Part shown: positions 11,386 through 64,000 of the stretch, one piece after another
Layout: each line of letters begins with the position of its first letter
How positions within the stretch are numbered: the stretch's first letter is position 1
Position numbers and translations under genes: made by a program
Source: Liolophura sinensis
Lineage: Eukaryota; Mollusca; Polyplacophora; Chitonida; Chitonidae
Length of the DNA stretch: 64,000 nt
Reading direction: 5' to 3'
Assembly (NCBI RefSeq): GCF_032854445.1
Contig: NC_088300.1
Location: 81,150,101-81,214,100, forward strand
Notes under the pieces: model-generated
What the model was told of the DNA's origin: nothing
Database searches by the model: none
The model's input: only the letters and a program-made list of their open reading frames with translations

Positions 11386-12950
11386 TCACTTCAATCTTGG
11401 TTTTTTGTTTGAACATATTGGCGTTTCCAAATCTAACTCATCCTCGGAAATGTCACCATTTGTGCTGGAAAAAAATGAGGACCCATTCAGTTGAGTACAG
11501 GGCATCCACTTGGGAAGAGATACAGCTGAGCTACTGGTCTGACTTGAATTGGCAGAGTTATCTCCCCTAAAAAATTGACCACTAGGTGGTGCTGTAGGTG
11601 TACTTTTCTGCACATTTGTTGCGTTCTTCAAAGTCCTTTTGGGGAAACCCCTTCTCAAAAGTTCTGCTGCTCTTTTCATATTTCTAGCAGGGTTGATGTT
11701 TGAATTCTCCTGACTGAAGGTTTTATTTGAACATTGTTGTTCTTGTTGTGGATTGTCCAGCAGATCAGAATCTAAAGAATTGTCTAGCCACAATTCACCA
11801 GAAAACAAACTAGCAGAAATATTAGGAGGGGCATTTGTCCACAACTTTTCCGTGTTTTCCACCTTGTCACCAAAACTGTCCGTCTGCTTGTCCCTTACAC
11901 TTTCCTCGAAGGCAAACTGATGGAGTTTACTGATGGTTTTCTTTGAGACCCCTGACCTACATATAGGCGCACTGTCATTTGGAGGTTTGGATATTGGTGT
12001 TGATGCTGCATGGCCAAGTTCCTTATCAAGGTCACTAAGAAGGTCACCATCAAGTCTAGCTTCCTTTCTCATTGGCATCTTATCAGTATACGCAGATTCC
12101 AAATTTCTGCCCACAACTAATTCATCCTCTGTTTTATCATTTATATCATCCAGAAAATCACAAGTTCCATTCATATTCTGAGAAATACTAAAATTTAAGT
12201 TTGACCTCACAGACTCAAAATGACCATCTTCCTTTCCACTCTGATTCTGTGTTTTTGACATCCTCGCTTTTCCCGAATGTGACACACATGTAGCTTGCAA
12301 AGAGTTAACAGCCCTTTTATCAGCTATCTCTGTACTTGTGTGATTGAGTTTTGATTTTGATTTAGGTTTGAACTTCCACTGGCTGAATGAATGATCATTA
12401 CTGACAGATGCTGCTTGTTCGGTCTCAGTACTCTGTTCTCCAGATTTATCACAAGTATTGTCAGGCCTTTTCAGTCGTCCATTTCTTTTCTGTATCCTGA
12501 CATTCCCTCTCTGGAACAACCTCTGCTCCGTGCTTTCAGTTAGGAGGTCTGTCAATGACGTATCCAAGAGAAAAGACTCGTCTTTTGACTCATTGTTATT
12601 GTTGGTTCTCACATGACTTTCCTTGTCAATATTAACAAGGAGATCCTTCCCAGAATTGTCTCCCCTGATCTGCTCACTTCTGCCCATGATGTTTTGTCTA
12701 GCTGTGGTAACATCTGTATGAGGTTCACTGGAATTGGTCTCCCTTCCTGGCACCTGCTTCTTGTGACTCCCGGATTCCTTCTTAGCCTTGCTGTTCGCGG
12801 ACTGTCCCTCCCTGCTGTTCCCACCCACACTTGGCCCAGGAGATGTTCCACCTGATCCCTGGCTTCCTGACAACTGCTCCTCAGCTGCCAGTCTTCTCAA
12901 CTCTTCCTCCAGTAAATCACCCAGGCTTAATCTGTTCAGGACTATCTCCA
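11386..12950 (-). CDS. MCM9: MCM9 exon 19 (C-terminal tail, stop codon)
   Basis: Acceptor gtcttcag|TGGAGA; one 521-codon exon ending TGA at 11386-11388. The first 25 residues ([20 protein letters not shown]) match the helical end of the MCM9 core; the rest is low-complexity and polar. Two short segments resemble the sparse conserved motifs of vertebrate MCM9 tails: [11 protein letters not shown] (about 831-840) and [11 protein letters not shown] (about 978-988). The protein ends in a basic KKPRLK, a plausible nuclear-localisation signal. The extent and length match MCM9 rather than other MCM proteins. Confidence 0.93.
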
Positions 12951-15900
12951 CTGAAGACATTCAACAAAAAATAACATTGATATGGCATGGCAATGTGAAC
13001 TGCAATGTTATCATGACTGAGTGTAACCTGCAATGTTATCATGACTGAGTGTAACCTGCAATGTTATCATGAGTGAATGTGCAGGTAGGATAATAAGGCA
13101 TGTAGGATAATGAGGCAGGTAGGATAATCAGGCATGTAGGATAATGAGGCAGGTAGGATAATGAAGCAGGTAGGATAACAAGGCCTGTAGGATAATAAAG
13201 CAGGTAGGATAACAAGGCATGAGGATAATGAGGCAGGTAGGATAACAAGGCATGTAAGATAATGAGGCAGGTAGGATAACAAGGTATTAGGATAATGAGG
13301 CATGTAGGATAATGAGGCATGTAGGATAACGAGGCACGTAGGAAAACCAGGCATGTAGGATAATGAGGCAGGTAGGATAACAAGGCATGTGGGATAATGA
13401 CGCATGCAGGATAACATGGCATATAGGATAATGAGGCAGGTAGGATAACAAGGCATGCAGGATAACAAGGCAGGTAAGATAATAAGGAAGGCAAGATAAT
13501 GAGGAAGGTATGATAACAAGGCATGTAGGATAACCAGGCAGGTAAGATAACAAGGAAAGTAAGATAATGAGGCAGGTAGGATAATAAGGCAAGTAGGATA
13601 ACCAGGCAGGTAAGATAACAAGGAAGGTAAGATAATGAGGCAGGTAAGATAATGAGGCAGGTATGATAACAAGGCAAGTAGGAAAATGAGGCAGGTGCAT
13701 GCAGGGTACCAAGGCAGGCCGGATTATGAGGTAGGGAGGACATGGAGGCGATGTGACTGGGTGGTCAGGTCAGTCAGGTATAAATGAATATAGCTGATGA
13801 AAGGCAGACTGTAAACCTCACCCTGCAGTTTGTACTCCTCCTCGGGCTGGTCCGGAAATGAGGTGTGGAGAGCATTGATGCCCCCCATGAGGGCCGCTCC
13901 CTGTAATGAACACACAGCCACATGTGTACACTGTATTTGTAATTAACTGGTGTGGATCAGTTAGTGATGAAGCAGAAGTCCAGTCACATCTAAACAGACA
14001 CAGTTTTAAAGCTTCTGACCTAAATCTTGTAAAGTTACCATTATTCAAACTAGAAAAACCGCCAGCTTAAAACTGGTCCTGTTTGATGATAAAGTATGAA
14101 GAAACAGTGGAGCAGATTGAAAACATCCCATATTACATCATTTCACTTGGGTAAGACTGAGAGCAGATGCAGTTACAATAAGTTTACCTGCATGGAAGAC
14201 TCCATTAGTGTTACAGCCACCACTGCATCAAGCACTGTCACCTTGTCTCGAAACATCAGCCGAGCATGAGCTGAACAACAGAAACAATTCTCACTATTCA
14301 TGTATTTCACCAAAATACATGTTGTAGTGGCCCAATCAACAGTAACCATGGATCAATGTCTACTGCAATAATACTTGTGGTTATTTTACATAGCGCTTAC
14401 TCTCTGAGACTGTGATCGTGTTTGAGTTTGAAGCGAGAAATGTTTTCCTTGAGAGAGGTTTGTAGTTAGTCTGTTTTTATCTTCAAAGAGAGTGAGTTTG
14501 TATTTACCTTGAGAAAGTTAGACATGCCTTTGTGTTTACCTTGAGAAAGTTAGATGTGAGTGTTTACCTTTTATGGAGAGTTTGAAGTGAATTTGTATTC
14601 ACCTTGAGAGGGCTTGAAGTGAGTTAGTGTTTATCTTTGAGAGAGATTGAAGTGAGCTTGTGTTTTCCTTAAGAGAGGTTTGTAGTTTAATAGTATATGT
14701 TTACTTTGAAAGAGATATTGTGAGTTTGTGTTTACCTTGAGAGAGGTTTGTAGTTTAATAGTATATGTTTACTTTGAAAGAGATATTGTGAGTTTGTGTT
14801 TACCTTGAGAGAGGTTTGTAGTTTAATAGTATATGTTTACTTTGAAAGAGATATTGTGAGTTTGTGTTTACCTTGAGAGAGGTTTGTTGTCAGTCTATGT
14901 TTACTCTAATTTATTTGTTCTTTATTTGATTGGTGTTTAACACCGTACTTAAGAATTTTTCACTTATATAACGGCAGCCAGAATAACGGTGGGAGGAAAA
15001 CAGGCAGATCCCAGGGAAAACCTGCAACCATGCACAGGTTGATGGCAGACCTTCAAGTAAGCCGCCCCACCCGAGCTGTTATACTGATACGGGTCAACCA
15101 GTTGTGCACTATCCCCTTCATGCTTACCTTGCGAGAGATTTAGTGACTTTATGTTTAGCTTTAGAAAGTCAGAAGTCAGTTCGGCTTTACCTTAGGAAAG
15201 TCTGAAGTGAGTTTGTGTTTACTTCAAAGAAGCTTGTAGTGACTGAGTTTCAGTTACCTTGAGAGAGTCTGATCATACTTTCTAGCAGCCTAACTGTTGT
15301 CCTTGCTGCATTACGGTGGTCCGCTCCTCTCTGGGCGCGGTAATACTCCTGTAGCACTCTACAACAACAACAAGAAAATCACCATCATCATAAAACACCT
15401 CTACACAAATACATACTCACATAACAGCTCTGCATGAAGACATCCTCACAGAACAGATCCTCACCTTTATTTATTTATATATTTAATTGGTGTTTTACAT
15501 CATACTTAACATTTCACTTACATGACAGAGACCAGCATTATGGTTGAAGGAAACAGCGCAGAGTCTGGGGGACCACACGACCATCCATGGTGGGCTGCTA
15601 GCCGACCCATCCTCGCATACAGTTCTGCATAAATACACCCTCATATAACACCTCTGCACAAACACCTCCCCCCCCCCAACAGAACAGCTCTGCACAAACA
15701 CACCCCCACAGAACAGCTCTGTACAAATACAACCCCACAGAACAACTCTGCACAAATAAACCCTCACATAATGGTTCTACACAAATACACCCTCACAGAA
15801 CAGCTCTATGCAAATACACCCCCACATAACAGCTATGCACAAACACACCCCCACAGAACAGCTCTGCACAAACACACCCCCACAGAACAGCTCTGCACAA

Positions 15901-18900
15901 ACACACCCTCACAGACCAGCTCTGCACAAATACACCCCCACAGAACAGCTCTATGCAAATACACCCTCACATAACGGCTCTGCACAAATACACCTCCACA
16001 GAACAGCTTTACACAAATAACAGCTCTGCACAAACACACCCTCACATAACAGCTCTGCACAAATAAACCCTTACATAATGGTTCTACACAAATACACTCT
16101 CACATAGCAGTTTTGCATAAACAAACCCTCACCTAACAGTTCTACACAAATACATCACATAACAGCTCTGCACAAATACACCCCCACAGAACAGTTCTAC
16201 ACAAATACATCATTGCACAACAGCTCTGCACAAACACACCCTCACGTTACAGCTCTGCACAAATACTCCCTCACAGAACAGCTCTGCACAAATACATTCT
16301 CACATAACAGTTCTACACAAATACATCACATAACAGCTCTACTCAAATACACCCTCACATAACAGTTCTACACAAATACACCCTCACATACCACCTCGAC
16401 ACAATGCACCCTACATAACAGCTCTACACAAATACACTCTCACATAACAGCTCTACACAAATACACTCTCGCAGAACAGTTCTACACAAACATCCTCACA
16501 TAACAGTTCTACACAAATATATCCTCACATAACAGCTCTGCACAAATATACCCTCACATAACAGCTCTGCACAAATGCATGACTGTCACATAACCTATAG
16601 ATTATCATGTAACAAACTACAGGTAGCTACCTGCCGGCCCCATCTGTCAGCTTAGGGGAGATACTTTTGATGTAGGACAGGTACACCTGCATTTTTTCCA
16701 TGCTCCACAGACTCTTCACATCCATGTCACCTGAGTAGGACACAGGCAAATATGAGATAATATAATGTGATAGAGGAAGTTCAGACATGTAATCTTGTTA
16801 GTCAGAGCACACATATACAGTACTAGTAGAAGGGAACCTGGCTAATCAGAGCACACACATACAGTACTAGTAGAAGGGAACCTGGTTAGTCAGCACACAC
16901 ACATACAGTACTAGTAGAAGGGAACATGGCTAGTCAGGGCACACATATACAGTACTAGTAGAAGGCAGCCTGGCTAGTCGGAGCACATACACACAGTACT
17001 AGTAGAAAGGAACTTGGCTAGTCAGGGCAAACACATACAGCATTAGTAGAAGGGAACCTGGCTAGTCAGGGCCTCCACATAAAGTACTAGTAGAAGGGAA
17101 CCTGGCTAATCAGAGCACACACACATACAGTACTAGTAGAAGGGAACCTGGCTGGTCAGAGCCCACACTTACAGTACTAGTAGATGGGAACCTGTTTAGT
17201 CAGGGCCCCCACATAAAGTACTAGTAGAAGGGAACCTGGCTAGTCAGAGCACACACATACAGTACTAGTAGAAGGAACCTGGCTAGTCAGAGCACACACA
17301 TACAATACTAGTAGAAGGGAACCTGGCTAATCAGAGCACACACACATACAGCACTAGTAAAAGGGAACCTGGCTAGTCAGAGCCCACACATGCAGTACTA
17401 GTAGATGGGAACCTGGCTAGTCAGGGCCCCCACATAAAGTACTAGTAGAAGGGAACCTGGCTAGTCAGAGCACACACATACAGTACTAGTAGAAGGGAAC
17501 CTGGCTAGTCAGGGCCCACACTTACAGTACTAGTAGAAGGGAACCTGGTTAGTCAGAGCACACACACAGTACTAGTAGAAGGGAACCTGGCTAGTCAGAG
17601 CACACACATACAGTGCTAGCAGGAGGGAACCTGGCTAGTCAGAGCAAACACACACACAATACTAGTAGAAGGGAACCTGGCTCGTCAGAGCACACACACA
17701 CACAATACTAGTAGAAGGGAACCTGGCTAGTCAGAGCACACACAATACTAGTAGAAGGGAACCTGGCTAGTCAGAGCAAACACATACAGTACTAGTAGAA
17801 GGGAACCTGGCTAATCAGAGCACACACATACAGTACTAGTAGAAGGGAACCTGGCTAGTCAGAACCCACACATACAGTACTAGTAGATGGGAACCTGGCT
17901 AGTCAGAGCACACACACAGTACTAGTAGAAGGGAACCTGGATAGTCAGGGCCCACACTTACAGTACTAGTAGAAGGGAACCTGGCTAATCAGAGAGCACA
18001 CACACAGTACTAGTAGAAGGGAACCTGGTTAGTCAGGGCCCACAGAGTACTAGTAGAAGGAAACCTGGCTAGTCAGAGCACACACACAGTACTAGTAGAA
18101 CGGAGCCTGGCTAGTCAGAGCACACACATACAGTACTAGTAGAAGGGAACCTGGTTAGTCAGGGTCCACAGAGTACTAGTAGAAGGGAACCTGGCTAGTC
18201 AGAGCACACACATACAGTACTAGTAGAAGGGAACCTGGCTAATCAGAGCACATACATACAGTGCTAGCAGAAGGGAACCTGGCTAGTCAGAGCACACACA
18301 TACAATACTAGTAGAAGGGAACCTGGCTAGTCAGAGCAAACACACACACAACACTAGTAGAAGGGAACCTGGCTCGTCAGAGCACACACACATACAGTAC
18401 TAGTAGAAGGGAACCTGCCTAGTCAGAGCACACACACATACAGTACTAGTAGATGGGAACCTGGCTCATCAGGGCACACACATACAGTACTAGTAGAAGG
18501 GAACCTGGCTAGTCAGAGCACACACATACAATACTAGTAGAAGGGAACCTGGCTAGTCAGAGCAAACACACACACAATACTAGTAGAAGGGAACCTGGCT
18601 AGTCAGAGCACACACACACACTACTAGTAGAAGGGAACCTGGCTAGTCAGAGCACACCCACATACAGTACTAGTAGAGGGGAACCTGGCTCGTCAGGGCA
18701 AACACACACACAATACTAGAAGCAGGGAACCTGGCTAGTCAGAACCCACACATGCAGTACTAGTAGATGGGAACCTGGCTCGTCAGGGCACACACATACA
18801 GTACTAGTAGAAGGGAACCTGGCTAGTCAGAGCACACACATACAGTACTAGTAGAAGGGAACCTGGCTAGTCAGAGCAAACACACACGCAATACTAGTAG

Positions 18901-21900
18901 AAGGGAACCTGGCTAGTCAGAGCACACACACACACTACTAGTAGAAGGGAACCTGGCTAGTCAGAGCACACCCACATACAGTACTAGTAGAAGGGAACCT
19001 TGCTCGTCAGGGCACACATACATACAGTACTAGTAGAAGGGAACCTGGCTGGTCAGAGTACACCCACATACAGTACTTATAGAAGGAAACCTGGCTCGTC
19101 AGGGCACACATATACAGTACTAGTAGAAGGGAACCTGGCTAGTCAGAGCACACACATACAATACTAGTAGAAGGGAACCTGGCTAGTCAGAGCAAACACA
19201 CACACAATACTAGTAGAAGGGAACCTGGCTAGTCAGAGCACACACACACACTACTAGTAGAAGGGAACCTGGCTAGTCAGAGCACACCCACATACAGTAC
19301 TAGTAGAGGGGAACCTGGCTCGTCAGGGCAAACACACACACAATACTAGAAGCAGGGAACCTGGCTAGTCAGAACCCACACATGCAGTACTAGTAGATGG
19401 GAACCTGGCTCGTCAGGGCACACACATACAGTACTAGTAGAAGGGAACCTGGCTAGTCAGAGCACACACATACAGTACTAGTAGAAGGGAACCTGGCTAG
19501 TCAGAGCAAACACACACGCAATACTAGTAGAAGGGAACCTGGCTAGTCAGAGCACACACACACACTACTAGTAGAAGGGAACCTGGCTAGTCAGAGCACA
19601 CCCACATACAGTACTAGTAGAAGGGAACCTTGCTCGTCAGGGCACACATACATACAGTATTAGTAGAAGGGAACCTGGCTGGTCAGAGTACACCCACATA
19701 CAGTACTTATAGAAGGAAACCTGGCTCGTCAGGGCACACATATACAGTACTAGTAGAAGGGAACCTGGCTAGTCAGAGCACACACATACAATACTAGTAG
19801 AAGGGAACCTGGCTAGTCAGAGCAAACACACACCCAATACTAGTAGAAGGGAACCTGGCTAGTCAGAGCAAACACACACACACTACTAGTAGAAGAGAAC
19901 CTGGCTAGTCAGAGCACACACACATACAGTACTAGTAGAAGGGAACCTGGCTAGTCAGAGCAAACACACACCCAATACTAGTAGAAGGGAACCTGGCTAG
20001 TCAGAGCACACACACACAATACTAGTAGAAGGGAACCTGGCTAGTCAGAGCACACACACACACACACTACTAGTAGAAGAGAACCTGGCTAGTCAGAGCA
20101 CACACACATACAGTACTAGTAGCAGGGAACCTGGCTAGTCAGGGCATACACATACAGTACTAGCAGAAGGGAACCTGGTTAGTCAGAGCACACACACATA
20201 CAGTACTAGTAGAAGGGAACCTGGCTAGTCAGAGCAAACACACACACATACAGTACTAGTAGAAGGGAACCTGGCTAGCCAGAGCAAACACACACAATAC
20301 TAGTAGAAGAGAACCTGGCTAGTCAGAGCACACACACACACAGTACTAGTAGAAAGGAACCTGGTTAGTCAGAGCATACACACATACAGTACTAGTAGCA
20401 GGGAACCTGGCTAGTCAGAGCATACACATACAGTACTAATACAAGGTTCGGTCGGGGGAACTGACCATCTTGATTGAAAAGAGAGAAAAAATGTAAATAT
20501 GTTTGTTGTGTAAATATACCAATATTATTACACTTCATAACCATCTTTGTGTAGTTACCTGATGGCTTTTTGTCCTCCAAAATGTAGTTAGAAACAACCC
20601 TGTCCCACTCCTCATTCTGCGAGTCCAGCAATACTAGTACCAGATCAAATCTGCTCAATAGGGGACTGGCCAGGGCAATGTTCACGCTGATTGACTGCAA
20701 ACACAGACATTAACATCACTGAATGAGTTACGGCCACGGCGATGTTCACACTGACAGACTGCAAACACAGACATTTACATCACTGACTGAGTTACGGCCA
20801 CAGCGATGTTCACACTGATTGACTGCAAACACAGACATTTACATCACTGAATGAGTTACGGCCACAGCGATGTTCACACTGACAGACTGCAAACACAGAC
20901 ATTTACATCACTGAATGAGTTACGACCACGGCGATGTTCACACTGACAGACTGCAAACACAGACATTTACATCACTGAATGAGTTACGGCCACAGCGATG
21001 TTCACACTGACAGACTGCAAACACAGACATTTACATCACTGACTGAGTTACGGCCACAGCGATGTTCATGCTAACAGACTGCAAACACAAACATTTACAT
21101 CACTGAATGAGTTACGGCCACGGCGATGTTCACACTGACAGACTGCAAACACAGACATTTACATCACTGAATGAGTTATGGCCACAGCGATGTTCACACT
21201 GACAGACTGCAAACACAGATATTTACATCACTGACTGAGTTACGTCCACAGCGATGTTCATGCTAACAGACTGCAAACACAAACATTTACATCACTGACT
21301 GAGTTACTGCCACAGTGATGTTCACACTAACATACTGCAAACACAGATATTTACATCAATGACTGAGTTACGGCCACAGCGATGTTCATGCTAACAGACT
21401 GCAAACACAAACATTTACATCACTGAATGAGTTACGGCCACGGCGATGTTCACACTGACAGACTGCAAACACAGACATTTACATCACTGACTGAGTTACG
21501 GCCACAGCGATGTTCATGCTAACAGACTGCAAACACAAACATTTACATCACTGACTACTGCCACGGCGATGTTCACACTAACAGACTGCAAACACAGATA
21601 TTTACATCACAAACTGAGTTACGGCCACTGCGATGTTCATGCCAACAGACTGCAAACACAGACATTTACATCACTGAATGAGTTACGGCCACAGCGATGT
21701 TCACACTGACAGACTGCAAACACAAACATTTACATCACTGAATGAGTTACGGCCACGGCGATGTTCACACTGACAGACTGCAAACACAAACATTTACATC
21801 ACTGAATGAGTTACGGCCACAGCAATGTTCACACTGACAGACTGCAAACACAAACATTTACATCACTGAATGAGTTACGGCCACGGCGATGTTCACACTG

Positions 21901-50384: not shown

Positions 50385-50869
50385 CACTGATAATTCTAAG
50401 GCGGAGCATGACTCATAACTTATGTATCACAAACTCATATTTCACTTGGAATTTCCCGCCAACTCGCCACTACATCTTGTAGTAGTGCAGAAAATATTTA
50501 GTTTAGTAGTAATAGCGTTTGATTTAGCTCGCATCCAGTTTGAAGTTTAGTCTATCTAAAGTACTCTTTTTAAAACAAAAATTGAATTATTATTGTCCTC
50601 ATTTGCTCGACAATCTGCAAGAAGATGTCGGAGATATGATTATTGAGGAGTAGTACTGGTCAGGCTACATTCATGACCAGCACGTTGACATCCAATTTAG
50701 CATTATTTAGCATCTACTAGACTAAATTAGTCGACTGATGCATTTCACTTTCTTGCCTCCATCGTAAAAGAACGCGCCCTGTTGCCGGCAAGTCTGAACC
50801 GTGTTTTAGGGAGTTGTGCAATGGAATGAATATGATCTGAGTATTTAACTTAAAACTCTGTAGCTGGCC
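50385..50869. promoter_or_regulatory. Putative bidirectional promoter, MCM9 / CHD1L
   Basis: About 485 bp between the tentative MCM9 start (minus) and the CHD1L start (plus). No clear TATA box at a fixed distance; ccgccaactcgcc and gaacgcgccctgttgccggc are the GC-richer parts in an AT-rich surround. 5' UTRs and promoters of both genes must fit here unless there are distant non-coding exons. Regulation itself is inference. Confidence 0.5.
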
Positions 50870-50963
50870 ATGGATCGCATAAAGGAAAAACTGGAGATTT
50901 TAGATGGAAAAAATGTCAAGACTCATGTCAAACAGGAAGCCCTGGATAAACTTGGCTTGACAG
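50870..50963 (+). CDS. CHD1L: CHD1L exon 1
   Basis: ATG in gccATGG context; ends TTGACAG|gtgatc in phase 1 (G|AT, Asp). Encodes [20 protein letters not shown] and ALDKLGLTG. Confidence 0.85.
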
Positions 50964-53900
50964 GTGATCATCGAGAATCCCTACAAGTAGTCCTGTACCT
51001 ATATAGTCGGACATTTCGTAACATGAGTGATCGATGGACCGTGATCGATGGACCGTGAGAATATCATGCTCTGGATCCATTGTGAGCGTGTGACCAGTCT
51101 GATTTGTCTCTAACGTACAATAGTTAAACTGTAAAGTGTCAGGCTTATAAAAACTAATTTGCATCTGTAAATTGAGTTTAGCCAAATGCAATGTAGATAC
51201 ATGTTGATAACATGGTCAGATGGTCACATTGCAAGTGTACCTTGGTATATGTACAGGCCACACCAGAACCTCCCCAACCAACCTCCACCCCCACCCCACC
51301 TTTTCCCCTTTTTTGTGGAACTATAAAACATATATGTGTGACAAATTGAACAACTCCTTGTCAATTTTGTCACACTGTGTGATGTAAAATGAACGTAATC
51401 AAATCCATGCAGTCACAACAGATACTAATTCAAAACCTTGTCTAAACAAATCCCCCCTCCCCCCAGTAGGTATGCCCGCAGTGCATTTGCACATATGAAC
51501 AGCAATCAGGAGAAATATAAAGTATGCCTCAAGAATGAAAAATATTTTCTGATCTCTCTTCATTCTTAACACCATATACTTTTCCCACAGTGCTGGTACC
51601 ATACCCTATCTTGTATCCCTGAATTTGTATCAAGACATCTAGTTCATGTTACAGTACTGCCAAGTATTTGTATCAGGACATCCAGTTCATGTTACAGCAG
51701 TGTATTTGCTTCTCTTACAGATATACAACTTAGACAATATCAGATTGATGGAGTCAATTGGCTCATAGAGCGTTTCCATAGAGAACATGGTTGTATCCTT
51801 GGAGACGAGATGGGGCTCGGCAAGACTTGTCAGGTGATGATAATTGTTACTATAACAGTCTGAAGATGTGTTTGTAGTGTTAAAATTTATGGCCTCATCT
51901 CAGACCACTATATGAACAAAAATGGGGCCAACTGTATGCTTATATATATATTCACCTCTAACCTGTCAGCTGAGATTTGTGATTGTGTACAGGTACATAT
52001 ATACTCACCTGTACAATGTCAGGTGAGATTTGTGATTGTGTGCAGGCACATATATGCTCATTCACCTGTACCACATCAGCTGAGATTTCTGATTATGTAC
52101 AGGTACATATATATTCCCCTGTACTCGGTCTGCTGAGATTTGTGATTGTGTACAGGTACAAATATATTCACCTGTACAATGTCAGCTGAGATTTGTGATT
52201 GTGTACAGGTTCACATAGATTTATCTGTACCATGTCAGCTGAGATTTGTGATTGTGTACACGTACATATATTCACCTGTACCCTGTCAGCTGAGATTTGT
52301 GATTGTGTGCAGGTACATATATATTCACCTGTACCCTGTCAGCTGAGATTTGTGATTATGTGCAGGTACATATATATTCACCTGTACCATGTCAGCTGAG
52401 ATTTGTGATCGTGTGGAGGTACATATAGATTCACCTGTACCCTGTCAGCTGAGATTTGTGATTGTGTACATGTAGATATATATTTACCTGTACCCTGTCA
52501 GCTGAGATTTGTGATTGTGTACAGGTTCACATAGATTTATCTGTACCATGTCAGCTGAGATTTGTGATTGTGTACAGGTGCATATATATTCACCTGTACC
52601 CTGTCAGCTGAGATTTGTGATTATGTGCAGGTACATATAGATTCACCTGTAGCCTGTCAGCTGAGATTTGTGATTGTGTGCAGGTACATAGATATATACC
52701 TGTATCCTGTCAGCTGAGATTTGTGATTGTGTGCAGGTACATATAGATTCACCTGTACCCTGTCAGCTGAGATTTGTGATTGTGTACATGTAGAGATATA
52801 TTTACCTGTACCCTTTCAGCTGAGATTTATGATTGTGTACATGTAGATTTATATTTCCCTGTACCCTGTCAGCTGAGATTTGGGATTGTGTAGTTGTACA
52901 TATATATTTACCTGTACCATGTCAGCTGAGATTTGTGATTGTGTACAGGTACATATACATTTACCTGTGGCCTGTCACCTGAGATTTGTGATTATGTGCA
53001 GGTACACATGTATTCACCTGTACCATGTCAGCTGAGATTTGTGATTGTGTGCAGGTACATATATATATACCTGTACCCTGTCAGCTGAGATTTGTGATTA
53101 TGTGCAGGTACACATGTATTCACCTGTACCATGTCAGCTGAGATTTGTGATTGTGTGCAGGTACATATATATATTCACCTGGAACCTGTCAGCTGAGATT
53201 TGTGATTATGTGCAGGTACACATGTATTCACCTGTACCATGTCAGCTGAGATTTGTGATTGTGTGCAGGTACATATATATATACCTGTACCCTGTCAGCT
53301 GAGATTTGTGATTGTGTGCAGGTACATATATATATATATTCACCTGGAACCTGTCAGCTGAGATTTGTGATTATGTGCAGGTACATATATATTCACCTGT
53401 ACCCTGTCAGCTGAGATCTGTGATTATGTGCAGGTACATATATATTCACCTGTAACCTGTCAGCTGAGATTTGTGATTATGTGCAGGTACATATATATTC
53501 ACCTGTAGCCTGTCAGCTGAGATTTGTGATTGTGTACAGGTACATATATATTCACCTGTAGCCTGTCAGCTGAGATTTGTGATTGTGTACAGGTACATAT
53601 ATATTCACCTGTACCCTGTCAGCTGAGATTTGTGATTGTGTGCAGGTACATATATATTCACCTGTACCCTGTCAGCTGAGATTTGTGATTGTGTACAGGT
53701 ACATATATATTCACCTGTAGCCTGTGAGCTGAGATTTGTGATTGTGTACATGTAGAGATATATTTTCCTGTACCCTCTCAGCTGAGATTTGCGATTGTGT
53801 GCAGGTACATATAGATTCACCTGTACCCTGTCAGCTGAGATTGTGATTGTGTACAGGTACATATAGATTCACCTGTGTATGTAACAGCTTAACGCCAATT

Positions 53901-56900
53901 CGTTCTTCCAAGAATATCACCGATTTTAATGAACAAGCTTGAATCGTGGTACAGCAGTTGAACAAGACTTGAACCCGCATATAGTTGTGATCACATATAG
54001 CTCAGAAACATACGATTGACTGCAAAGAAAACAAACATAAACCTGCATAAAATGCCTTCACTTAGTACGCGCCTTTGATATATGCCATAGTATGTAGGCG
54101 CCAGGTGGCCATTACTGTTAACTGTACTTACTGTATAACACTGATTACATTTACCATTTGTTGTGGTTGTAGTGCGATCTTTGGCGGGAAAGAACAGAAT
54201 TAATGAAACAATTATTTTCAATGAACATAGTTGTCTGTTACGTGCAAATATCACAGGCCAGGAGAGAACATATCTTTACGAAACATATAGGATGTCAATG
54301 CATTTGAAATACCGTTTTGTAGACCATTACACCGCTTTCATAGTGTCAACAAGTGGACCACATTTTGTCTGTCAGTGTCAAAGTTCACATCGCGCCGCAA
54401 CACCTTCCCGGTTGTAAAACCATAAAAGCGAAACAACAGACTTTCATTGCACGCTATAATACATGAAGACATTAAAATATAATTCAGAGCCAACAAATGT
54501 TCTTTGGCCTTTAAACACTGGCCCCCATTTGTGTCAGTTTCGGGGCACAATTACACAGTCTTGCCATTAAAGGCAAATCAAACACAAAAATCCACTGAAT
54601 GTCAGAATGTTAGTTCGAGGAAGTTTAGGTATCGTCCATCTGAAGAACCAAGCACAACTTGTCAACTGGACCTCGCAGATTCCCTGCCTTGGTTCTGACT
54701 TCCACACTCCTTACAAACCTCCTTACGAATCCTGGACGACACTGAGAACACGTCCAAGGTTCCACGAGTTCCTCGGTGAATCCTCGGCAATCAGGACCAC
54801 GTCATTGACACGAGCATTCCCTGTGGCGCATTCCACTTTTGTCTTTCCTGTAACAATGGTAAGTATTCCTTCACCCAGTGTTTCCAGAATACATCTGCAC
54901 AGTACTGAACCTGACGCCACTTACATCAAACAAAACTGTCTTTCTTGTCAAAGATCCTTGGAGGCATTTGTTCTCCTGGTCTAAGCACCAACAGGTGATT
55001 TGGTGTCAGAGCGTCAATGTCACTTGGATTACTATAGGTCACACTGATAGGCCTGCTGTTCAGGATTGCTTCGATCTCACAACACAGGGTCTGAAGACCT
55101 TCGTCGTTCATCTTGATTGTCTGCTGTTGCAGCAAAGAATAAAGCACTTTCCTTACACAACGGATAATTCTCTCCCAAACACCTCCGAAGTGGGAGCTGG
55201 CAGGAGGGTTGAATTCCCAGTGAAAACCTTTCTGAGCCAAAGTTTTTCCAATTTTACTTTTGTTCCACTTGATGATTTCTTCTCGGAGTTCCCGTTCAGA
55301 TCCTACAAGGTTACTGCCATTGTCAGATCTCATGACCTTAAGGGGTCCTCTTCTTTACAGGAACCTCCGGACTGCGTTAATACAGGAGTCTGTATCCAGT
55401 GAATGAGCTACTTCCAGGTGGACTGCTTACACTGCCAGGCAAGTGCAAATCACTCCATAATGCTCATGGATGCTTCGTCCTTGTTTGATCTGGAATGAGC
55501 CGAAGTAGTCAACTCCTACTTGGGAAAATGGAGGATCACCAGCAGATACCCTGTCACGGGGAAGATCCGCCATTTTTTGTTGGCATAGTCGACCTTGGTA
55601 CTTGCAACACACAACACATTTAGAAACTAGTCTCTTGACACCAAGGATCCAATACTTTCATCGCAGTGAGGTGAGTATGGCATTCTTTCCAAGATGTCCA
55701 ACTGTCTCGTGTGTGGCGCACAAGGAGCTGAGACACAGGAGAGGATTTCGGTAACAGAAGCTGTTCCTCATAGGGAATGATGGCGCGCCTCAACCGTCCG
55801 CCGACTCTAAGAAACTGTTCCTCCATGAACGTGTCCATCTTGTACGTGGCACTGGACTTCTTGATTATTGCATGACCATTTTGTGGGTCAGCTTGTAGGG
55901 CTGTCATCTCCTCGGAGAAAGTCTGTCGCTGGACATACTTGATAATGGCATTCTCTGCCTTTGGTAGAACATCTGATGAAAGGTTTTCTTTGATGCCGTC
56001 TTTGGAAGCTGACAACATGGCCATCTTTAAGGCATTCAACTCACTATTGATGAACTCCTGCTGTCTAACAGGATCGGTCTCTTTGAGGCGAGCTTCTTGT
56101 GCAAAGCTGAGTCCTTGTGCAAATGCACAATGCGTTGCAAGTTTTTGATGGCAACTAGAATCCAGCCCACTGTTGCTTTCATTTTCGGCCATGAGGAAAA
56201 ATAATTCAGAAGTCCATCCATCATAGAGTATTTATGATCAGACACTGTCGCCATCACAGGTTTCTTTACCTCTGGATCTATGGATGAGAGGGCCAGCTGT
56301 AATTCTTGACACTGAAGCCATTCATGTTCTCCTTTCCATAGGAATGTGGGTCCATTCACCCAGGTTTCACTTTCAGTGAACTTTGCTATGTTTGATCCTC
56401 TTGAAGCAGAGTCTGCTGGATTGTTCTTGGAATCCACATAGCCCCACTTCCTTAAGTCGGACGCTTCCCTAATGAGTGTCACTCTATTGGCCACAAAGGT
56501 ATGAAAGCGACTTTTCTCGTTGGCGATGTAGCGAAGTACAGACATGCTATCTGTCCAATGAAATACCTTGTTCACTGCATACTGCAGCTCTTTCAGGATC
56601 ATGTGATTAACACGAACTGACAATGTGGCAGCAGTCAATTCCATGTGTGGAATTGTGACAGTCTTTAATGGAGCAACCCTTGATTTGCCCATCAACAGAG
56701 TGCGGTGCACCTTGCCCTCAACGTTGGTCAAGCGAAGATACGATGCCGTACCATATCCATTGTCACTGGCATCGGAAAAGTTGTGGACTTGGCAGGAAGT
56801 CACTGGACCAAAGTTTTCTGGTTTGTAACATCTCAGCAGCGTCAAACTTTCTAAGCATGGCAACTCACTTAGCCGTTGGTTCCATTTTTGTAAGCTGGCA

Positions 56901-59900
56901 TCAGAGAGTTTTTTGTCCCAGTCAAGATGCTGATGGCAGAGGTCCAGTAGGATTTGTCTTGCTGTAAGCACAAATGCAGCTGCTAGACAGAACTCACTAC
57001 AGACAACACCTGTCGTCTTGTAAAACAACAATTACCACTCACAATCCTGAATCCAAGATGGTTGGTCTCCATACACACCAAGAGCTCTTTTGGATGGAAG
57101 GCTGTCCTTGTCTAAGTCCAGCAATTTTACTTCTTTAGCTCTGTCAGCAATGGGCACTGACTCCAGAACTTGTGGGCTGTTACTCACCCATTTAGTCAAG
57201 TTGAACCCTCCCTTAGAACACATCTCACTTGTCTTATTGATTAGGTGAATGGCTTTCTCTTCTGTCTCAACGGAAGTCAAACAGTCGTCCACAATAGACT
57301 TCTTGAAACTTCTTATAGGCTTAATTTCACATTTCATGGCTTCTCAGCTGTATGTTGGGTCATTAGCTTTTCTTGCTTCTTGCTTGACAAACTGTACGAG
57401 CTGATCAAACTGTACCACCTGTTTTCTTGCCTTTGTTTGGTCCACGATGTTTCGCCATTTGTCGTGGTAATATATGGGAAGCTTGGCCACCAGCTGTTTT
57501 TAGTTTGCCGAGTACTCAAGAATTCTGACAGCTTCAATGCTCTTAACAGCGTTTTGGCATTGTCAGAAAAATACAAAAGTCATCCAGAGCTTTGGGATTA
57601 TCAGGTTTGATGTGTGGCCAGTTTATCACCTTGTTAATGTATGCATTGGCAATAGCTTCTTGATCGCCATATGTTTCTTCGAGTTCTTGTACGGCTGCCT
57701 TGTACCCAATCTCGGCAGGTAAATAGCTGAAACCACTCACTACCCTGTTAGCTTCACCAGTGGTAAATTGCTCAAGATAACTTGTAAGGCTGCCTTGTAC
57801 CCAATCTCGGCAGGTAAATAGCTGAAACCACTCACTACCCTGTTAGCTTCACCAGTGGTAAATTGCTCAAGATAACTTGTAATGCTGCCATGTACCCAAT
57901 CTTGGCAGGTAAATATCTGAAACCACTCACTACCCTGTTAGCTTCACCAGTGGTAAATTGCTGAAGATAACTTGTAAGGCTGCCTTGTTCCCAATCTCGG
58001 CAGGTAAATAGCTGAAACCACTCACTACCCTGTTAGCTTCACCAGTGGTAAATTGCTCAAGATAACTTGTAAGGCTGCCTTGTACCCAATCTTGGCAGGT
58101 AAATAGCTGAAACCACTCACTACCCTGTTAGCTTCACCAGTGGTAAATTGCTGAAGATAACTCATATGTTCACGGTCGTCTTCCGAGGGAATGATAACCT
58201 TGATGGTGAACTGGCGAATGAATCGTCTATACTGTAGTGGGTCTCCAGTGAACTTTGAGATTTCTGCTGTAGGTTTCTTTATCTGACAAACCATTGACAG
58301 AACTAAATCTTGATTGGCTGAAAAGGCAGTGTTCTGCATTTGTCTGTCATATTGAGTTGATGTGAAGAGAGTGTCAAATATGCCCATGTTGTCTTGCCTG
58401 CCTTGGGAAATATCTGGTCTTTTTACATATGTGATATTTCTTGGGATATGTGGCAGCGCATCAGGGTTAAGTATGTATTTGATAACATTGGCTGGTTTTG
58501 CTTTGGCAGAAACAAAACTTTTCACTGGTAATTGTGGATCAAAATTCAACTCTTTTCTCAACTCTTGTAGATCGAACTCATCAAGCGCCTCTGACTTCGC
58601 TTCATTAACAGCCATCTCTATGCTTAAATTTAACTCTTCTTGCTTGAGTTGTAGTTTAAGCCTTTGAATCTCTAGTTCTTGTTTTCTTTTGAGTGTAGAC
58701 GCTCTGGCCAATAATTCAGCCCTTCTTTGCTTTTCTTTGAGTTTAGCCGATGACAGTGAGCTGGCAACTTTGGAAACGGATTGCGGACCAGTTTGAGAGA
58801 CGCTGTCTTCAGGCTGTACATTTGAATATCCAGACACTGAATATGTTTGAGCATTGTCTCTGAACCAGCCCTCAACACTTGTTTTAAAACTTTTCATAAC
58901 ACCAAATTCTCTGTCAAGCAGCTTCTTTTCATGTACATCTGCTTCAGAGAACATATCTGAGTATTCATCACATACTCTATATAGCTGGGAGTATGTATTC
59001 AGCCATTCACCATATTGTTCTTTTAATACTTGATGGTGATGTGGCTTGGCACATTAAATTGTTTATTACTGTGCATTTATCTTGCAACTGACTGAAAACA
59101 CTTAATATTACCCCTTCTTTGTTTTCTCTCCAAAATCATAAACCCTTCTGTGTTGATTTCCTTGGGCGAGCACCAGTCCTAATAGCTGTGTCTTTCATGT
59201 CCCCCTCATGTGGAGCCTCATCCTTGAATGTTGCAGTCTGTATACTTCTAGGCAGAGCTGAATCCATAATTTATTTTAGCGGCGATTCTCTAAATCGTGC
59301 GTGATGAAAGAGTGTCAGTGATCAAAAACGTCAGTGAATGTATGTAACAGCATAACGCCAATTCGTTGTTCCAAGAATATCACCGATTTTAATAAACAAG
59401 CCTGAACCATGGTAAAGCAGTTGAACAAGACTTGAACCCGCATATAGTTGTGATCACATATAGCTCAGAAACATACGATTGACTGCGAAGAAAACAAACA
59501 TAAATCTGCATAAGATGCCTTCACTTAGTACGCGCTTTTGATATATGTCAAAGAATGTAGGCACCAGGCTGTCGTTACTGTTAACTGTACTTACTGTATA
59601 AAACTGATTACATTTACGAGATGTTGTCGTTGCAGTGCGATCTTTGGCAGAAAAGAACAATATTAATGAAACAATTATTTTCAGTGAACATGGCCTTTAC
59701 AACCTGTACCCTGTCAGCTGAGATCTGTGATTGTGTTGAGGTACATATAGATTCACCTGTACCCTGTCAGCTGAGATCTGTGATTGTGTTGAGGTACATA
59801 TAGATTCACCTGTACCCTGTCAGCTGAGATCTGTGATTGTGTTGAGGTACATATAGATTCACCTGTACCCTGTCAGCTGAGATCTGTGATTGTGTTGAGT

Positions 59901-62325
59901 TACATATAGATTCACCTGTACCCTGTCAGCTGAGATCTGTGATTGTGTTCAGGTACATATAGATTCACCTGTACCCTGTCAGCTGAGATCTGTGATTGTG
60001 TTCAGGTACATATAGATTCACCTGTACCCTGTCAGCTGAGATCTGTGATTGTGTTCAGGTACATATAGATTCACCTGTACCCTGTCAGCTGAGATCTGTG
60101 ATTGTGTTCAGGTACATATAGATTCACCTGTACCCTGTCAGCTGAGATCTGTGATTGTGTTCAGGTACATATAGATTCACCTGTACCCTGTCAGCTGAGA
60201 TCTGTGATTGTGTTCAGGTACATATAGATTCACCTGTACCCTGTCAGCTGAGATTTGTGATTGTGTAGGTGTACTTTCCTGACCTAATGCTTTATTTTAG
60301 TTTTGTGATGTGATGTGATGTATCTATCCCTACATTCTCTGATGACAACTGTAACATGTGTCTCTACTTATTAAGTATATTTACCATTTCAGAGTATTTC
60401 CTTTATTGTTTACCTTCATGGAAATAATTTGGCCAAAGCCCCGTGTTTGATTCTGGCTCCTCTTTCTGTGACAGGAAACTGGCAAACAGAGCTCCAGAAG
60501 TGAGTCAGTGTGTGTCTGTGTGCAAGTGTGTACTGTGTATGTGTGTACTGTGCAATGCCTATGTATGTGTGTACTGTGCAATGCCTGTGTATGTGTGTAC
60601 TGTGCATTTCCTGTGTATGTGTATACTGTGCAATGCCTGTGTATGTGTACTGTGCAATGCTTGTGTATGTGTGTCCTGTGCAATGCCTGTGTCTGTGTGT
60701 ACTGTGCAATGCCTGTGTATGTGTGTACTGTGCAATGCATGTGTATGTGTGTACTGTGCAATGCCTGTGTACTGTGCATTTCCAGTGTATTTGTGTACTG
60801 TGCACTACCTGTGTATGTGTGTACTGTGCAATGCCTGTGTCTGTGTGTACTGTGCAATGCCTGTGTATGTGTGTACTGTGCAATGCCTGTGTGTGTGTAC
60901 TGTGAAATGCTTGTGTATGTGTGTACTGTGCAATGCCTGTGTATGTGTGTACTGTGCAGTGCCTGTGTATGTGTGTACTGTGCAATGCATGTGTATGTGT
61001 GTACCATGCAATGCCTGTGTACTGTGCATTTCCTGTGTGTGTGTGTGTGTACTGTGCAATGCCTGTGTATGTATGTATCAACAAGAGAAAAAACAACAAG
61101 CTGTTTTGCCATAAAAAATACAAAAATACAGACATGGAACATGGTTCTTTTAGGTTTGCTCCTGGGCTGGAAGTGATGACATATATGGGAAACAAAGACT
61201 TCCGAGAGAATCTACGACATAAAATTACAAGGGGTAAAAAGAAAGGAAAGATCCCCTTTGACGTCCTGCTCACAACATATGAGGTAATGGTGCTTTGAGA
61301 TAAGTCAATAAAAATTGTCCATTTGTTATGGTCGTAATCAGTCATGCGTTCATAAAAGCTATTGATTTAGCTTATTTCACCCTATACCTTCAAGTTAACA
61401 CGTAGTGCATTGATTTAGCTTATTCCACCCTATACCTTCAAGTTAACATGTAGTGCATTGATTTAGCTTATTTCACTATATACCTTCAAGTTAACATGTA
61501 GTGCATTGATTTAGCTTATTTCACTATATACCTTCAAGTTAACATGTAGTGCATTGATTTAGCTTATTTCACTCTGTATCTTCAAGTTAACATGTAGTGT
61601 ATTGATTTAGCTTATTTCACTCTGTATCTTGAAGTTTACATGTAGTGTATTGATTTAGCTCATTTCACTCTATACCTTCAAGTATTTATATCTTTATATA
61701 CAAACAAATTCAGTGGTATTGGTGCTTTGTATAGCGCGAAAAAGAGAAAATCTGCTAGCGCTGTGGAAATACCACCCTCCTCCCCCTCACACCCATCCCC
61801 GCTGAAATATAAAGCCAGCCAATCAGAATGGTGATATTTTAAATACTTGTTTCTCATTGGCTACCAAGTCAAGAAGAAGTTAATTAAACATCGTGTTATA
61901 GTGAGGTTTAGTTTCATGATTCCCGTCTGATGAATTTGTTGGCAAATGAATTTTCAAATGACGAAAATTTGAAAATTATTTCATTATTTTCATTGATTGG
62001 CAAAGTACAGGGACATCTCAGCACAGTATATTGTTTTATTCTCTTTTTTTTTCTTAAAGTGTCACAAAAAATGTTTAGTCTCTTCTCAATTCTGTAAATA
62101 TCAACTGTTGTTGTACAAAATTTGTCTCAACTTTGAATATGCATATCTTTTCTTTGTAAATTTGTTTTGGTGAATGCACAAAACTGTTTTTGTTTCCTAT
62201 TCTCATGACAGATTCTTCTGAAGGATGAGTCATTTCTTGGACATCTGTCCTGGTCATTGTTGGTTGTGGATGAAGCTCACAGACTGAAGAACCATGAGTC
62301 TATCCTACACCAGGCACTGTGTCAG
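50870..62325 (+). CDS. CHD1L: CHD1L / ALC1 chromatin remodeler, 5' end (spliced, partial)
   Basis: Exons 50870-50963, 51721-51833, 60393-60499, 61154-61283, 62212-62325 with matching phases, 186 codons, continuing right of the window. CHD1L is a nuclear SNF2-family ATPase recruited and activated by poly(ADP-ribose) through a C-terminal macro domain (not in view) at DNA breaks. Seen: [16 protein letters not shown], helicase motif [10 protein letters not shown] (about 59-67), motif Ia-like [12 protein letters not shown], the [10 protein letters not shown] segment, VLLTTYE, and motif [12 protein letters not shown] (166-175). The short N-terminus before the LRQYQ block and the lack of chromodomains point to CHD1L rather than CHD1 or SMARCA members. 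The start is the first ATG after an AT-rich leader, and the following 31 codons resemble the short ALC1 N-terminus. Introns 2, 3, 4 and 5 carry tandem arrays. Confidence 0.92.
51721..51833 (+). CDS. CHD1L: CHD1L exon 2 (motif I)
   Basis: Acceptor tcttacag|ATATAC, donor TTGTCAG|gtgatg. Encodes [18 protein letters not shown] and [14 protein letters not shown], the SNF2 ATP-binding motif. Confidence 0.96.
51940..53875. repeat. Minisatellite, 53 bp x about 36, CHD1L intron 2 (left part)
   Basis: Units 'gtacatatatattcacctgt' + 'accctgtcagctgagatttg' + 'tgattgtgtacag', heterogeneous. It resumes at 59707 after the LTR element. The 'TGTCAGctgag' core faintly resembles the exon 2 donor TTGTCAG|gtgatg, and one early unit reads gtcaggtgagatt; descent is not established. 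Confidence 0.93.
53876..54242 (-). repeat. 3' LTR of the BEL/Pao element
   Basis: Starts tgtatgtaacagcttaacgc on the plus strand. About 365 bp, similar throughout to 59339-59701, with many substitutions and small indels; the inner border is approximate. Confidence 0.85.
54723..56035 (-). pseudogene. Integrase remnant (BEL/Pao pol)
   Basis: Split over several frames. Seen: [10 protein letters not shown] and the zinc-binding-type region (about 55660-55830), the core with VGVDYFG, then SDNGSNL and [11 protein letters not shown]. These give the Asp, Asp, Glu of a retroviral-type integrase, followed by LNSRPI and TPNHLL. A C-terminal NDVVLI block is near 54800. Breaks near 55620, 55430 and 55340. 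Confidence 0.85.
56036..57337 (-). pseudogene. RT C-terminus and RNase H remnant (BEL/Pao pol)
   Basis: 57337-57032 begins just before the RT catalytic motif (IVDD, about 57289) and covers the end of RT; the RT fingers and palm N-terminal to it are gone. 57031-56036 has [29 protein letters not shown] and NPADSASRG, the four acidic blocks of RNase H. One frame break joins the parts. Confidence 0.85.
57543..58954 (-). pseudogene. Gag-like remnant (BEL/Pao, DUF1759 type)
   Basis: Starts near 58954 with a charged, coiled-coil-prone segment ([20 protein letters not shown]), then [16 protein letters not shown], the landmark of BEL/Pao gag. The frame is disrupted by five tandem copies of a 95-bp segment (57694-58163), after which gag-like sequence ([20 protein letters not shown]) continues in another frame and stops at 57543. 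Confidence 0.82.
57694..58163 (-). repeat. 95-bp tandem duplication inside gag, x5
   Basis: Units begin gctgccttgtacccaatctc and include ggtaaatagctgaaaccact. The segment encodes the [10 protein letters not shown](E/K)IGYKA part of gag. 95 is not a multiple of three. Confidence 0.92.
59339..59701 (-). repeat. 5' LTR of the BEL/Pao element
   Basis: Starts tgtatgtaacagcataacgc and ends ggcctttaca on the plus strand: TG..CA termini. Followed by target duplication ACCTG. Confidence 0.88.
59707..60275. repeat. Minisatellite, 53 bp x about 11, CHD1L intron 2 (right part)
   Basis: Continuation of the 51940-53875 array, but almost uniform, with 'gagatctgtgattgtgttcagg' and 'tatagattcacctg' variants that are rare or absent on the left side of the LTR element. 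Confidence 0.94.
60393..60499 (+). CDS. CHD1L: CHD1L exon 3
   Basis: Acceptor catttcag|AGTATT, donor CCAGAA|gtgagt. Encodes [15 protein letters not shown] and [17 protein letters not shown]. Confidence 0.94.
60530..61075. repeat. Minisatellite, about 25 bp x 21, CHD1L intron 3
   Basis: Units 'tgtgtactgtgcaatgcctg' + 'tgtatg' with cattt/caatg and ctgtg variants. All six frames stay open for long stretches by composition. The same unit reappears inside the intron 5 array. Confidence 0.93.
61154..61283 (+). CDS. CHD1L: CHD1L exon 4
   Basis: Acceptor ttttag|GTTTGC, donor TATGAG|gtaatg. Encodes [19 protein letters not shown] and [10 protein letters not shown]. Confidence 0.95.
61365..61690. repeat. 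Minisatellite, about 48 bp x 7, CHD1L intron 4
   Basis: Units 'gtagtgcattgatttagctt' + 'atttcactatataccttcaa' + 'gttaacat'. Confidence 0.92.
62212..62325 (+). CDS. CHD1L: CHD1L exon 5 (DEAH box)
   Basis: Acceptor catgacag|ATTCTT, nearest donor TGTCAG|gtaaat. Encodes [20 protein letters not shown] and HQALCQ. The exon end and donor are repeated downstream, so the donor actually used is open: four more (exon ends at 62364, 62403, 62442, 62481) would lengthen the protein in frame by 13 residues each. Confidence 0.9.
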
Positions 62326-64000
62326 GTAAATGAGGAATCTATCCTACACCAGGTACTGTGTCAGGTAAATGAGGAATCTATCCTACACCAGGCACTGTGT
62401 CAGGTAAATCAGGGATCTATCCTACACCAGGCACTGTGTCAGGTAAATCAGGGATCTATCCTACACCAGGTACTTTGTCAGGTAAATGAGGAGTATGCAT
62501 GTACTGTGCAATGCCTGTGTTTGTGCCTGTGCACTGTGTCAAGTAAATCAGGGATCTGTCCTACACCAGGCACTGTGTCAGGTAAATGAGGAATCTATCC
62601 TGCATCAGGCACTGTGTCAGGTAAATCAGGGATCTATCCTACACCAGGCACTGTGCCAGGTAAATCAGGGATCTATCCTACACCAGGCACTGTGTCAGGT
62701 AAATGAGGAATCTATCCTACACCAGGTACTGTGTCAGGTAAATGAGGAGTATGCGTGTACTGTGCAATGCCTGTGTTTGTGTCTGTGCACTGTGTCAAGT
62801 AAATCAGGGATCTATCATACACCAGGCACTGCATCAGGTAAATCAGGGATCTATCCTACACCAGCCACTGTGTCAGGTAAATCAGGGATCTATCCTACAC
62901 CAGGTACTGTGTCAGGTAAATGAGGAGTATGTGTGCACTGTGCAATGCCTGTGTTTGTGCCTGTGCACTGTGTCAAGTAAATCAGGGATCTATCCTACAC
63001 CAGGCACTGTGTCAAGTAAATCACGGATCTATCCTACACCAGGCACTGTGTCAAGTAAATCACGGATCTATCCTACACCAGGCACTGTGTCAGGTAAATG
63101 AGGAATCTATCCTACACCAGGTACTGTGTCAGGTAAATGAGGAGTATGCGTGTACTGTGCAATGCCTGTGTTTGTGTCTGTGCACTGTGTCAAGTAAATC
63201 AGGGATCTGTCCTACACCAGGCACTGCATCAGGTCAATCAGGGATCTATCCTACACCAGGCATTGTGTCAGGTAAATCAGGGATCTATCCTACACCAGGC
63301 ACTGTGTCAGGTAAATCAGGGATCTATCCTACACCAGGCACTGTGTCAGGTAAATCAGGGATCTATCCTACACCAGGCACTGCATCAGGTAAATCAGGGA
63401 TCTATCCTACACCAGGCACTGCATCAGGTAAATCAGGGATCTATCCTACACCAGGCACTGTGTCAGGTAAATCAGGGATCTATCCTACACCAGGCACTGT
63501 GTCAGGTAAATCAGGGATCTATCCTACAACAGACACTGTGTCAGGTAAATCAGGGATCTATCCTACACCAGACACTGTGTCAGGTAAATCAGGAATCTAT
63601 CCTACACCAGGTACTGTGTCAGGTAAATGAGGAGTATGCGTGTACTGTGCAATGCCTGTGTTTGTGCCTGTGCACTGTGTCAAGTAAATCAGGGATTTAT
63701 CCTACACCAGGCACTGCATCAGGTAAATCAGGGATCTATCCTGCACCAGGCACTGTGTCAGGTAAGTCAGGGATCTATCCTACACCAGGCACTGTGTCAG
63801 GTAAGTCAGGGATCTATCCTACCACAGGCACTGTGTCAGGTAAGTCAGGGATCTATCCTACACCAGGTACTGTGTCAGGTAAATCAGGGATCTATCCTAC
63901 ACCAGGCACTGTGTCAGGTAAATCAGGGATCTATCCTACACCAGGTACTGTGTCAGGTAAGTCAGGGATCTATCCTACACCAGGTACTGTGTCAGGTAAG
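62326..64000. repeat. Exon 5 donor-derived array, 39 bp, CHD1L intron 5, to window end
   Basis: Each unit ends 'ctatcctacaccaggcactg' + TGTCAG|gtaaatcaggga, i.e. the last 26-30 nt of exon 5 (SILHQALCQ) plus its 5' splice site; 39 bp equals 13 codons. About 35-40 units are in view. Five units carry a 55-bp type insert made of the intron 3 repeat (starting near 62489, 62745, 62924, 63142, 63632). Several units after 63750 have the stronger donor gtaagt. Confidence 0.95.

Follow-up and report, generated by a model that had tools for sequence, protein, structure and literature searches.

Tandem repeats of minisatellite type that lie over exon–intron boundaries have been described in lancelets, where they are called 'mirages' and, in the accessible parts of these accounts, occur at both 5′ and 3′ boundaries. 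Many copies, though not all, retain AG or GT, and copies at the boundary escape homogenization of the cluster; regular splicing is undisturbed, and length is unstable between alleles or cells (PMC3087553). Lancelet units measure 10–160 bp, with 3–6 copies in BflGb6, and the evidence given in the sections available comprises RT-PCR for the globins and length and somatic instability for Adh3 (PMC3087553, PMC3902484). In humans, downstream repeat units of a minisatellite in IFI6, reported in 1995, serve as splice donors and give rise to three mRNAs (as cited in the accessible text of PMC4526556). Human segmental duplications contain internal tandem repeats whose units average about 30 bp. Some lie at exon–intron boundaries and affect splicing, and the repeats have been linked to recent paralogues and to intron formation (PMC2812944, available portion). 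Minisatellites in the first intron are also found in earthworm metallothionein, and the accessible text makes no mention of repeat units that contain a junction (PMC12783039). For molluscs, no report of junction-spanning repeats was recognized among the papers listed from the open-access literature, as far as its texts were available; in the part of the L. japonica genome paper at hand, the main text has no words that start with 'tandem' or 'satellite', and the repeat table gives one line to simple repeats and microsatellites (PMC11068029).

Here, we describe arrays of this kind in a chiton (Mollusca). These splice-junction repeats are real and belong to a known kind, which is extended to a phylum from which no report was recognized among the papers listed. 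Judged by the available parts of the lancelet papers, the chiton arrays resemble mirages in having units that span the boundary, in affecting both boundary types, in mostly retaining AG or GT and in their overlapping unit sizes. They differ in occurring in a mollusc, in numbering up to four strict cases per gene and in reaching dozens of copies rather than 3–6; moreover, they are known from genome sequence alone, whereas the lancelet cases come with RT-PCR and instability data. They share with the earthworm an intronic minisatellite in a spiralian, but the chiton units contain the junction. Unlike the human boundary repeats, which the text consulted ties to recent paralogues, they lie in conserved genes with open reading frames.

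The locus and its gene models

The window, by which we mean the whole 64-kb stretch of DNA analysed, contains three genes, where the initial annotation had recognized two:

11386..49920, minus strand: MCM9, 18 exons modelled; 49920 is a placeholder for the start of the first exon
51721..62325, plus strand: CHD1L, four exons modelled within the window; earlier exons lie outside the model
2494..8554, minus strand: ACSS3-like acyl-CoA synthetase, five exons modelled within the window; the gene continues below coordinate 1

MCM9 and CHD1L were identified through their resemblance to solved chains of the two proteins, and their exon borders were set by tblastn together with splice signals. The MCM9 model forms a single open frame through to a stop codon, intact over 17 junction pairs. 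Its least certain call is the exon 6 donor, for which frame consistency was preferred over a better-looking neighbouring donor. CHD1L was traced by tblastn to 78324 in the flank. The AMP-binding acyl-CoA synthetase gene at the low end of the window is one that we take to be ACSS3; three exons were tried, of which two gave a match to Pfam PF00501 (AMP-binding), one exon matches acetyl-CoA synthetases in the PDB, and the model end at 8554 is the edge of an open frame rather than a proven start. All modelled introns in the window are GT–AG, and the intron caller applied to the flanks and to the CCT genes accepts GT–AG introns only.

Several mobile-element-like sequences are interspersed with these exons. 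SINE-like copies, presumably of a type widespread in mollusc genomes, are scattered at 1251–1490, 23830–24240, 39480–39711 and 49457–49771, one of them between the MCM9 exon 2 acceptor and its array. An open frame of 224 residues in MCM9 intron 1 (41093–41764, minus strand) is retroelement-like by eye and gave no match in a Pfam search. A CHD1L intron contains a 53-bp array in two parts (51944–53876 and 59702–60266), which are separated by about 5.8 kb of inserted DNA. The minus strand of this insert codes for a Pao-type retrotransposon peptidase domain (PF05380), and, as judged by eye, sequences that resemble each other lie close to its two ends.

Junction-spanning arrays within the window

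Arrays were found by TRF and junctions were placed by the in-frame gene models; in addition, each 90-bp junction segment (45 exon and 45 intron bases) was aligned to its own intron. Six junction-spanning repeats result, four at donors and two at acceptors, comprising five repeat families and one old, diverged duplicate:

36508..37360, minus strand: MCM9 exon 4 donor array, 45-bp unit, about 18 copies, junction between 37332 and 37331
20678..23467, minus strand: MCM9 exon 13 acceptor array, 64-bp unit, about 43 copies, junction between 20695 and 20694
39413..40559, minus strand: MCM9 exon 2 acceptor repeat, junction between 39419 and 39418
41801..46477, minus strand: main block of the same 41-bp acceptor family, in MCM9 intron 1
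14576..15267, minus strand: MCM9 exon 15 donor, diverged family of about 32 bp, junction between 15258 and 15257
32793..32936, minus strand: MCM9 exon 6 donor duplicate, 63 bp, 73% identity
62299..64000, plus strand: array at the CHD1L donor between 62325 and 62326, 39-bp unit, extending past the window to 64680

The unit at MCM9 donor 4 consists of 29 exon and 16 intron bp, and GT is retained in 18/18 copies; that at CHD1L 62325 consists of 27 exon and 12 intron bp, with GT retained in 56/57 copies over the window and flank parts. At MCM9 acceptor 13, 27 exon bp fall within the alignment and AG is retained in 41/41. The exon 2 acceptor has a composite layout, in which an exon-side copy (39413–39457, with 6 exon bp) is followed by the SINE-like insert and then by the 41-bp array at 39713–40559; over both blocks of the family, AG is retained in 122/130 copies. 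MCM9 donor 15 is the weakest strict case: 10 exon and 14 intron bp recur in five gapped matches, the best of 29 bits, the nearest TRF arrays begin 35.5 bp off, and ungapped scans of the intron found no second copy. The donor 6 duplicate carries 36 exon bp and is absent from the TRF output. Two further arrays are near misses:

30504..30576, minus strand: MCM9 exon 8 acceptor, two-copy 37-bp repeat, edge 4.5 bp from the junction
31526..32339, minus strand: MCM9 exon 7 acceptor, 31-bp array, edge 12.5 bp from the junction

The introns of the window hold about 27 independent arrays, the donor 6 duplicate included, and those of the ACSS3-like gene within the window have no spanning array, four strict ones lying just outside. 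The initial annotation had counted six junction arrays among about 20, three at 5′ and three at 3′ sites. The in-frame models bear out the six, one of them a duplicate that TRF missed; the total was too low, and the even division gives way to four donors and two acceptors.

Occurrence beyond the window

Junction-spanning arrays recur outside this locus, in both flanks and in genes on other scaffolds, so that the general pattern proposed from the window does extend beyond it. The wider sample consists of CCT genes, some tRNA-synthetase exons and the flanks of the locus.

In the CHD1L flank, donor 70459 lies inside a 47-bp array and acceptor 67632 inside a 132-bp duplication of 1.8 copies, with fainter indications of spanning repeats at donors 72243 and 75269. 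The ACSS3-like flank contributes nine further introns, four of which have strict junction-spanning arrays. Three are at donors, given here in window coordinates:

about -3784: ACSS3-like donor, 126-bp unit
about -9664: ACSS3-like donor, 77-bp unit
about -21152: ACSS3-like donor, 95-bp unit with 11 exon bases

The fourth lies at the acceptor of exon 8, an exon whose position was set by eye; it consists of roughly 33 units of 87 bp, each containing about 40 exon bases. Exon 8 appears, again by eye, to finish in an AG/GCAAGT donor (a GC–AG intron). The donor at -20199 is a weak case, and two ACSS3 exon pieces were rejected as false, being copies within the 77-bp array.

Among the CCT genes, named by similarity to human sequences, 4/77 called introns have spanning donor arrays, in CCT5, CCT6 and CCT3 (two). 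Thus three of eight CCT genes are positive, all on scaffolds other than that of the window, and no acceptor-spanning array occurs in the 77 introns. This set includes six introns with a negative call score; one exon pair was uncallable, two gaps were too large, and the Pfam matches on C11 were omitted as they yielded no multi-exon CCT model. For the 66-bp donor of CCT3, placement at a deeper copy scores -5.5 and placement at the exon end 10.1. As a control, shuffled CCT introns gave 2/308 false calls. Among tRNA-synthetase exons, no spanning array was found in four well-called introns or at exon ends called alone. Donors and acceptors called alone numbered 38 + 38; the one match retained is the 60-bp donor of CCT3, found again with the CCT introns. 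Two matches at C8:53412069 were dropped, the Pfam match there having an internal stop and ends inside arrays, and in the CCT intron analysis the array at that acceptor was devoid of exon bases. As side observations, an array in CCT3 (scaffold C8) terminates exactly at an acceptor and has no exon bases, and arrays in CCT8 and CCT6 begin within 2 bp of a donor.

Strict units overall range from 32 to 132 bp, and the largest family has about 130 copies. Four weak or diverged donors do not enter the strict total: MCM9 donor 6, CHD1L 72243, CHD1L 75269 and ACSS3 -20199.

Comparison with chance expectation

In the genes of the window, 61% of intron bases belong to arrays. A naive null based on present intron length was rejected because the arrays themselves fill most of the introns. 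Instead, every array was collapsed to one unit and its position of birth randomized. Collapsing shortens introns by 59% in the window genes and by 16% in the CCT introns; over 123 introns, the median collapsed intron measures 487 bp and the median array unit 36 bp, and with introns this short and units of this size, junction overlaps are often expected by chance.

For the window alone, six cases are seen against 1.4–3.7 expected on collapsed introns (P = 0.002–0.14). By the strict count, 15 of the 78 arrays in 123 introns span a junction and 63 do not. When arrays are placed within their own introns, 9.1–12.3 are expected (ratio 1.2–1.7, P = 0.018–0.21), and with lenient edges the excess under this null is not significant (P = 0.2); when introns are pooled, 6.0–7.7 are expected (ratio 2.0–2.5, P = 0.0005–0.007). 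Removal of arrays of fewer than 2.5 copies leaves 14/62, with ratios of 1.5–3.0 (P = 0.0001–0.064). ACSS3 introns 5–13, obtained after the test had been set up and with collapsed lengths entered by hand, show four cases where 1.8 or 1.4 would be expected (P = 0.069 or 0.035). In the CCT sample by itself, 4/23 arrays span a junction against 2.5–3.6 (P = 0.22–0.50), or, for arrays of at least four copies, 4/10 against 0.9–1.6 (P = 0.006–0.048). Runs with units of 13–14 bp (46840, 51027) were excluded from the nulls, and a 22-bp two-copy repeat at 25721 was counted in the window null and is absent from the later ones.

The excess over chance is thus probably modest rather than large, at 1.2–3.0 fold according to the null, and part of it may stem from extra attention to junctions, since these were scrutinized more than other positions (alignment contributed MCM9 donor 15 and acceptor 2), which biases the count toward an excess. 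The impression of far more arrays at junctions than expected was overstated, given the array content of these introns. What is left of the idea that arrays nucleate at junctions is this enrichment, with P between 0.0001 and 0.2 depending on the null, which lends the idea weak support.

Array density is 0.52–0.70 in the window and the CHD1L flank (scaffold C6), 1.3 Mb from the scaffold end, and 0–0.35 in 17 other stretches. A relation between density and proximity to the scaffold end is suggestive only (Spearman -0.41, P = 0.08, 19 stretches).

Splice signals in the copies

Interior copies in four window arrays retain the splice dinucleotide in 18/18, 40/40, 41/41 and 122/130 cases; the CCT6 array retains GT in only 8/19. 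Copies that keep GT or AG were scored against the real site with a simple weight matrix. Over eight donors, 89/125 copies equal or exceed the score of the real site, including 44/56 at CHD1L 62325, 24/25 at CHD1L 70459 and 8/8 in the 66-bp array of CCT3; at MCM9 donor 4, just 5/18 reach the score of the real donor. Over three acceptors, 31/134 copies match the real site, with 26/42 at MCM9 acceptor 13 and 5/91 at MCM9 acceptor 2. Because copies equal the real site at several arrays, strength cannot discriminate there and position must do so; at other arrays, strength may help to select the true site.

The junction copy is less like the consensus than the mean copy at MCM9 acceptor 2 (0.83 versus 0.92) and acceptor 13 (0.88 versus 0.94), and more like it at MCM9 donor 4 (0.98 versus 0.93) and CHD1L 62325 (0.95 versus 0.92). 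Anchoring by the exon part, whereby a conserved exon copy would keep an array recognizable for longer, was considered and rejected, as exon parts of the units are no better conserved (0.910–0.933, against 0.917–0.953 for intron parts, in four arrays).

Donors and acceptors

Donors outnumber acceptors by 11 to 4 in the strict count (P = 0.12), so that the bias check suggested at the outset gives a leaning in the sampled genes that falls short of significance. Leaving out MCM9 donor 15 gives 10 versus 4 (P = 0.18), adding the four weak or diverged donors gives 15 versus 4 (P = 0.019), and adding the doubtful CCT3 acceptor as well gives 15 versus 5 (P = 0.041); the donor excess is therefore no more than suggestive. 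It would be in keeping with first-come splicing, where the true donor would be transcribed ahead of its copies and the true acceptor behind them, so that donor duplications would perhaps be safer than acceptor ones.

Origin and retention of the arrays

The account that we favour, and hold to be rather likely, is that these arrays are mirage minisatellites, in which the founding unit straddled a junction and expanded into the intron, while the copy on the exon side keeps the exon intact. Tandem duplications would arise about at random in array-prone DNA, and because introns would have been short before expansion, a sizeable share of units would cover a junction. The exon-side copy would preserve the original exon and be picked by the spliceosome, and the remaining copies would stay within the intron and be removed with it. 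Gene models built on the exon-side sites yield open reading frames, and from reading frame and protein similarity we infer that these are the sites used. A neutral account of this form, combining random duplication in short introns with tolerance, most likely explains most of the pattern. Against this account stand the arrays in which most copies fall short of the real site (MCM9 donor 4, MCM9 acceptor 2 and the three acceptors taken together) or lack GT (CCT6), and MCM9 exon 6, where the frame-consistent donor differs from the best-looking one; furthermore, the excess persists under most nulls (P down to 0.0001), and random placement may therefore not be the whole story. Junctions might instead promote the birth of arrays, as the initial annotation suggested, with splicing factors such as U1 or U2AF, R-loops or the splice-site sequence favouring slippage or unequal exchange. 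The 1.2–3.0 fold excess over 123 introns and the four ACSS3 cases would agree with such promotion, which we nevertheless consider unlikely, in that 63/78 arrays lack a junction, the own-intron null with lenient edges gives P = 0.2, uneven scrutiny favours an excess and the lengths of the ACSS3 introns were entered manually.

It is less probable still that the arrays are functional, their extra sites yielding regulated alternative transcripts as in human IFI6, with which they share minisatellite units bearing splice donors. Four copies lie in frame ahead of the stop at CHD1L 62325 and likewise in the 66-bp array of CCT3 (where the frame check started at a deeper copy), the ACSS3 acceptor unit of 87 bp is divisible by three and has long open stretches, and 8/15 strict unit lengths are multiples of three (one-sided P = 0.09). 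Unlike IFI6, however, 6/8 donors examined meet a first in-frame stop within 66 bp past the real site, so that use of a downstream copy would be predicted to truncate the protein, and the poor retention of GT in CCT6 also argues against a function. An artefact of assembly or haplotype in repeat-rich DNA is highly improbable. HiFi coverage is 14X according to the accessible part of the genome paper (PMC11068029), multi-kilobase arrays are hard to assemble, and the number of copies could be in error; the units themselves, however, are not readily explained as an artefact, as the MCM9 frame holds over all its junction pairs and like structures occur on other scaffolds. Beyond the mirage account, a broader proposition would be that spanning arrays are widespread in chiton genes, are born or kept above chance and affect donors more than acceptors because whichever site is transcribed earliest wins; duplication would keep the true donor ahead of its copies but put the true acceptor behind its own. 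We regard this proposition as doubtful at present.

Significance

The arrays extend to a mollusc a phenomenon known from lancelets and humans, at an apparent frequency sufficient for statistics. Arrays with multiple sites, several of them at donors with copies of equal strength, of which a single one leaves the exon unchanged, allow position to be separated from strength without engineering. The chiton arrays also bear on the proposal that duplications of boundaries give rise to new introns. If the first transcribed site does win, the genome would hold many natural experiments in splice-site choice, in which donors would often be accompanied by decoys of equal strength.
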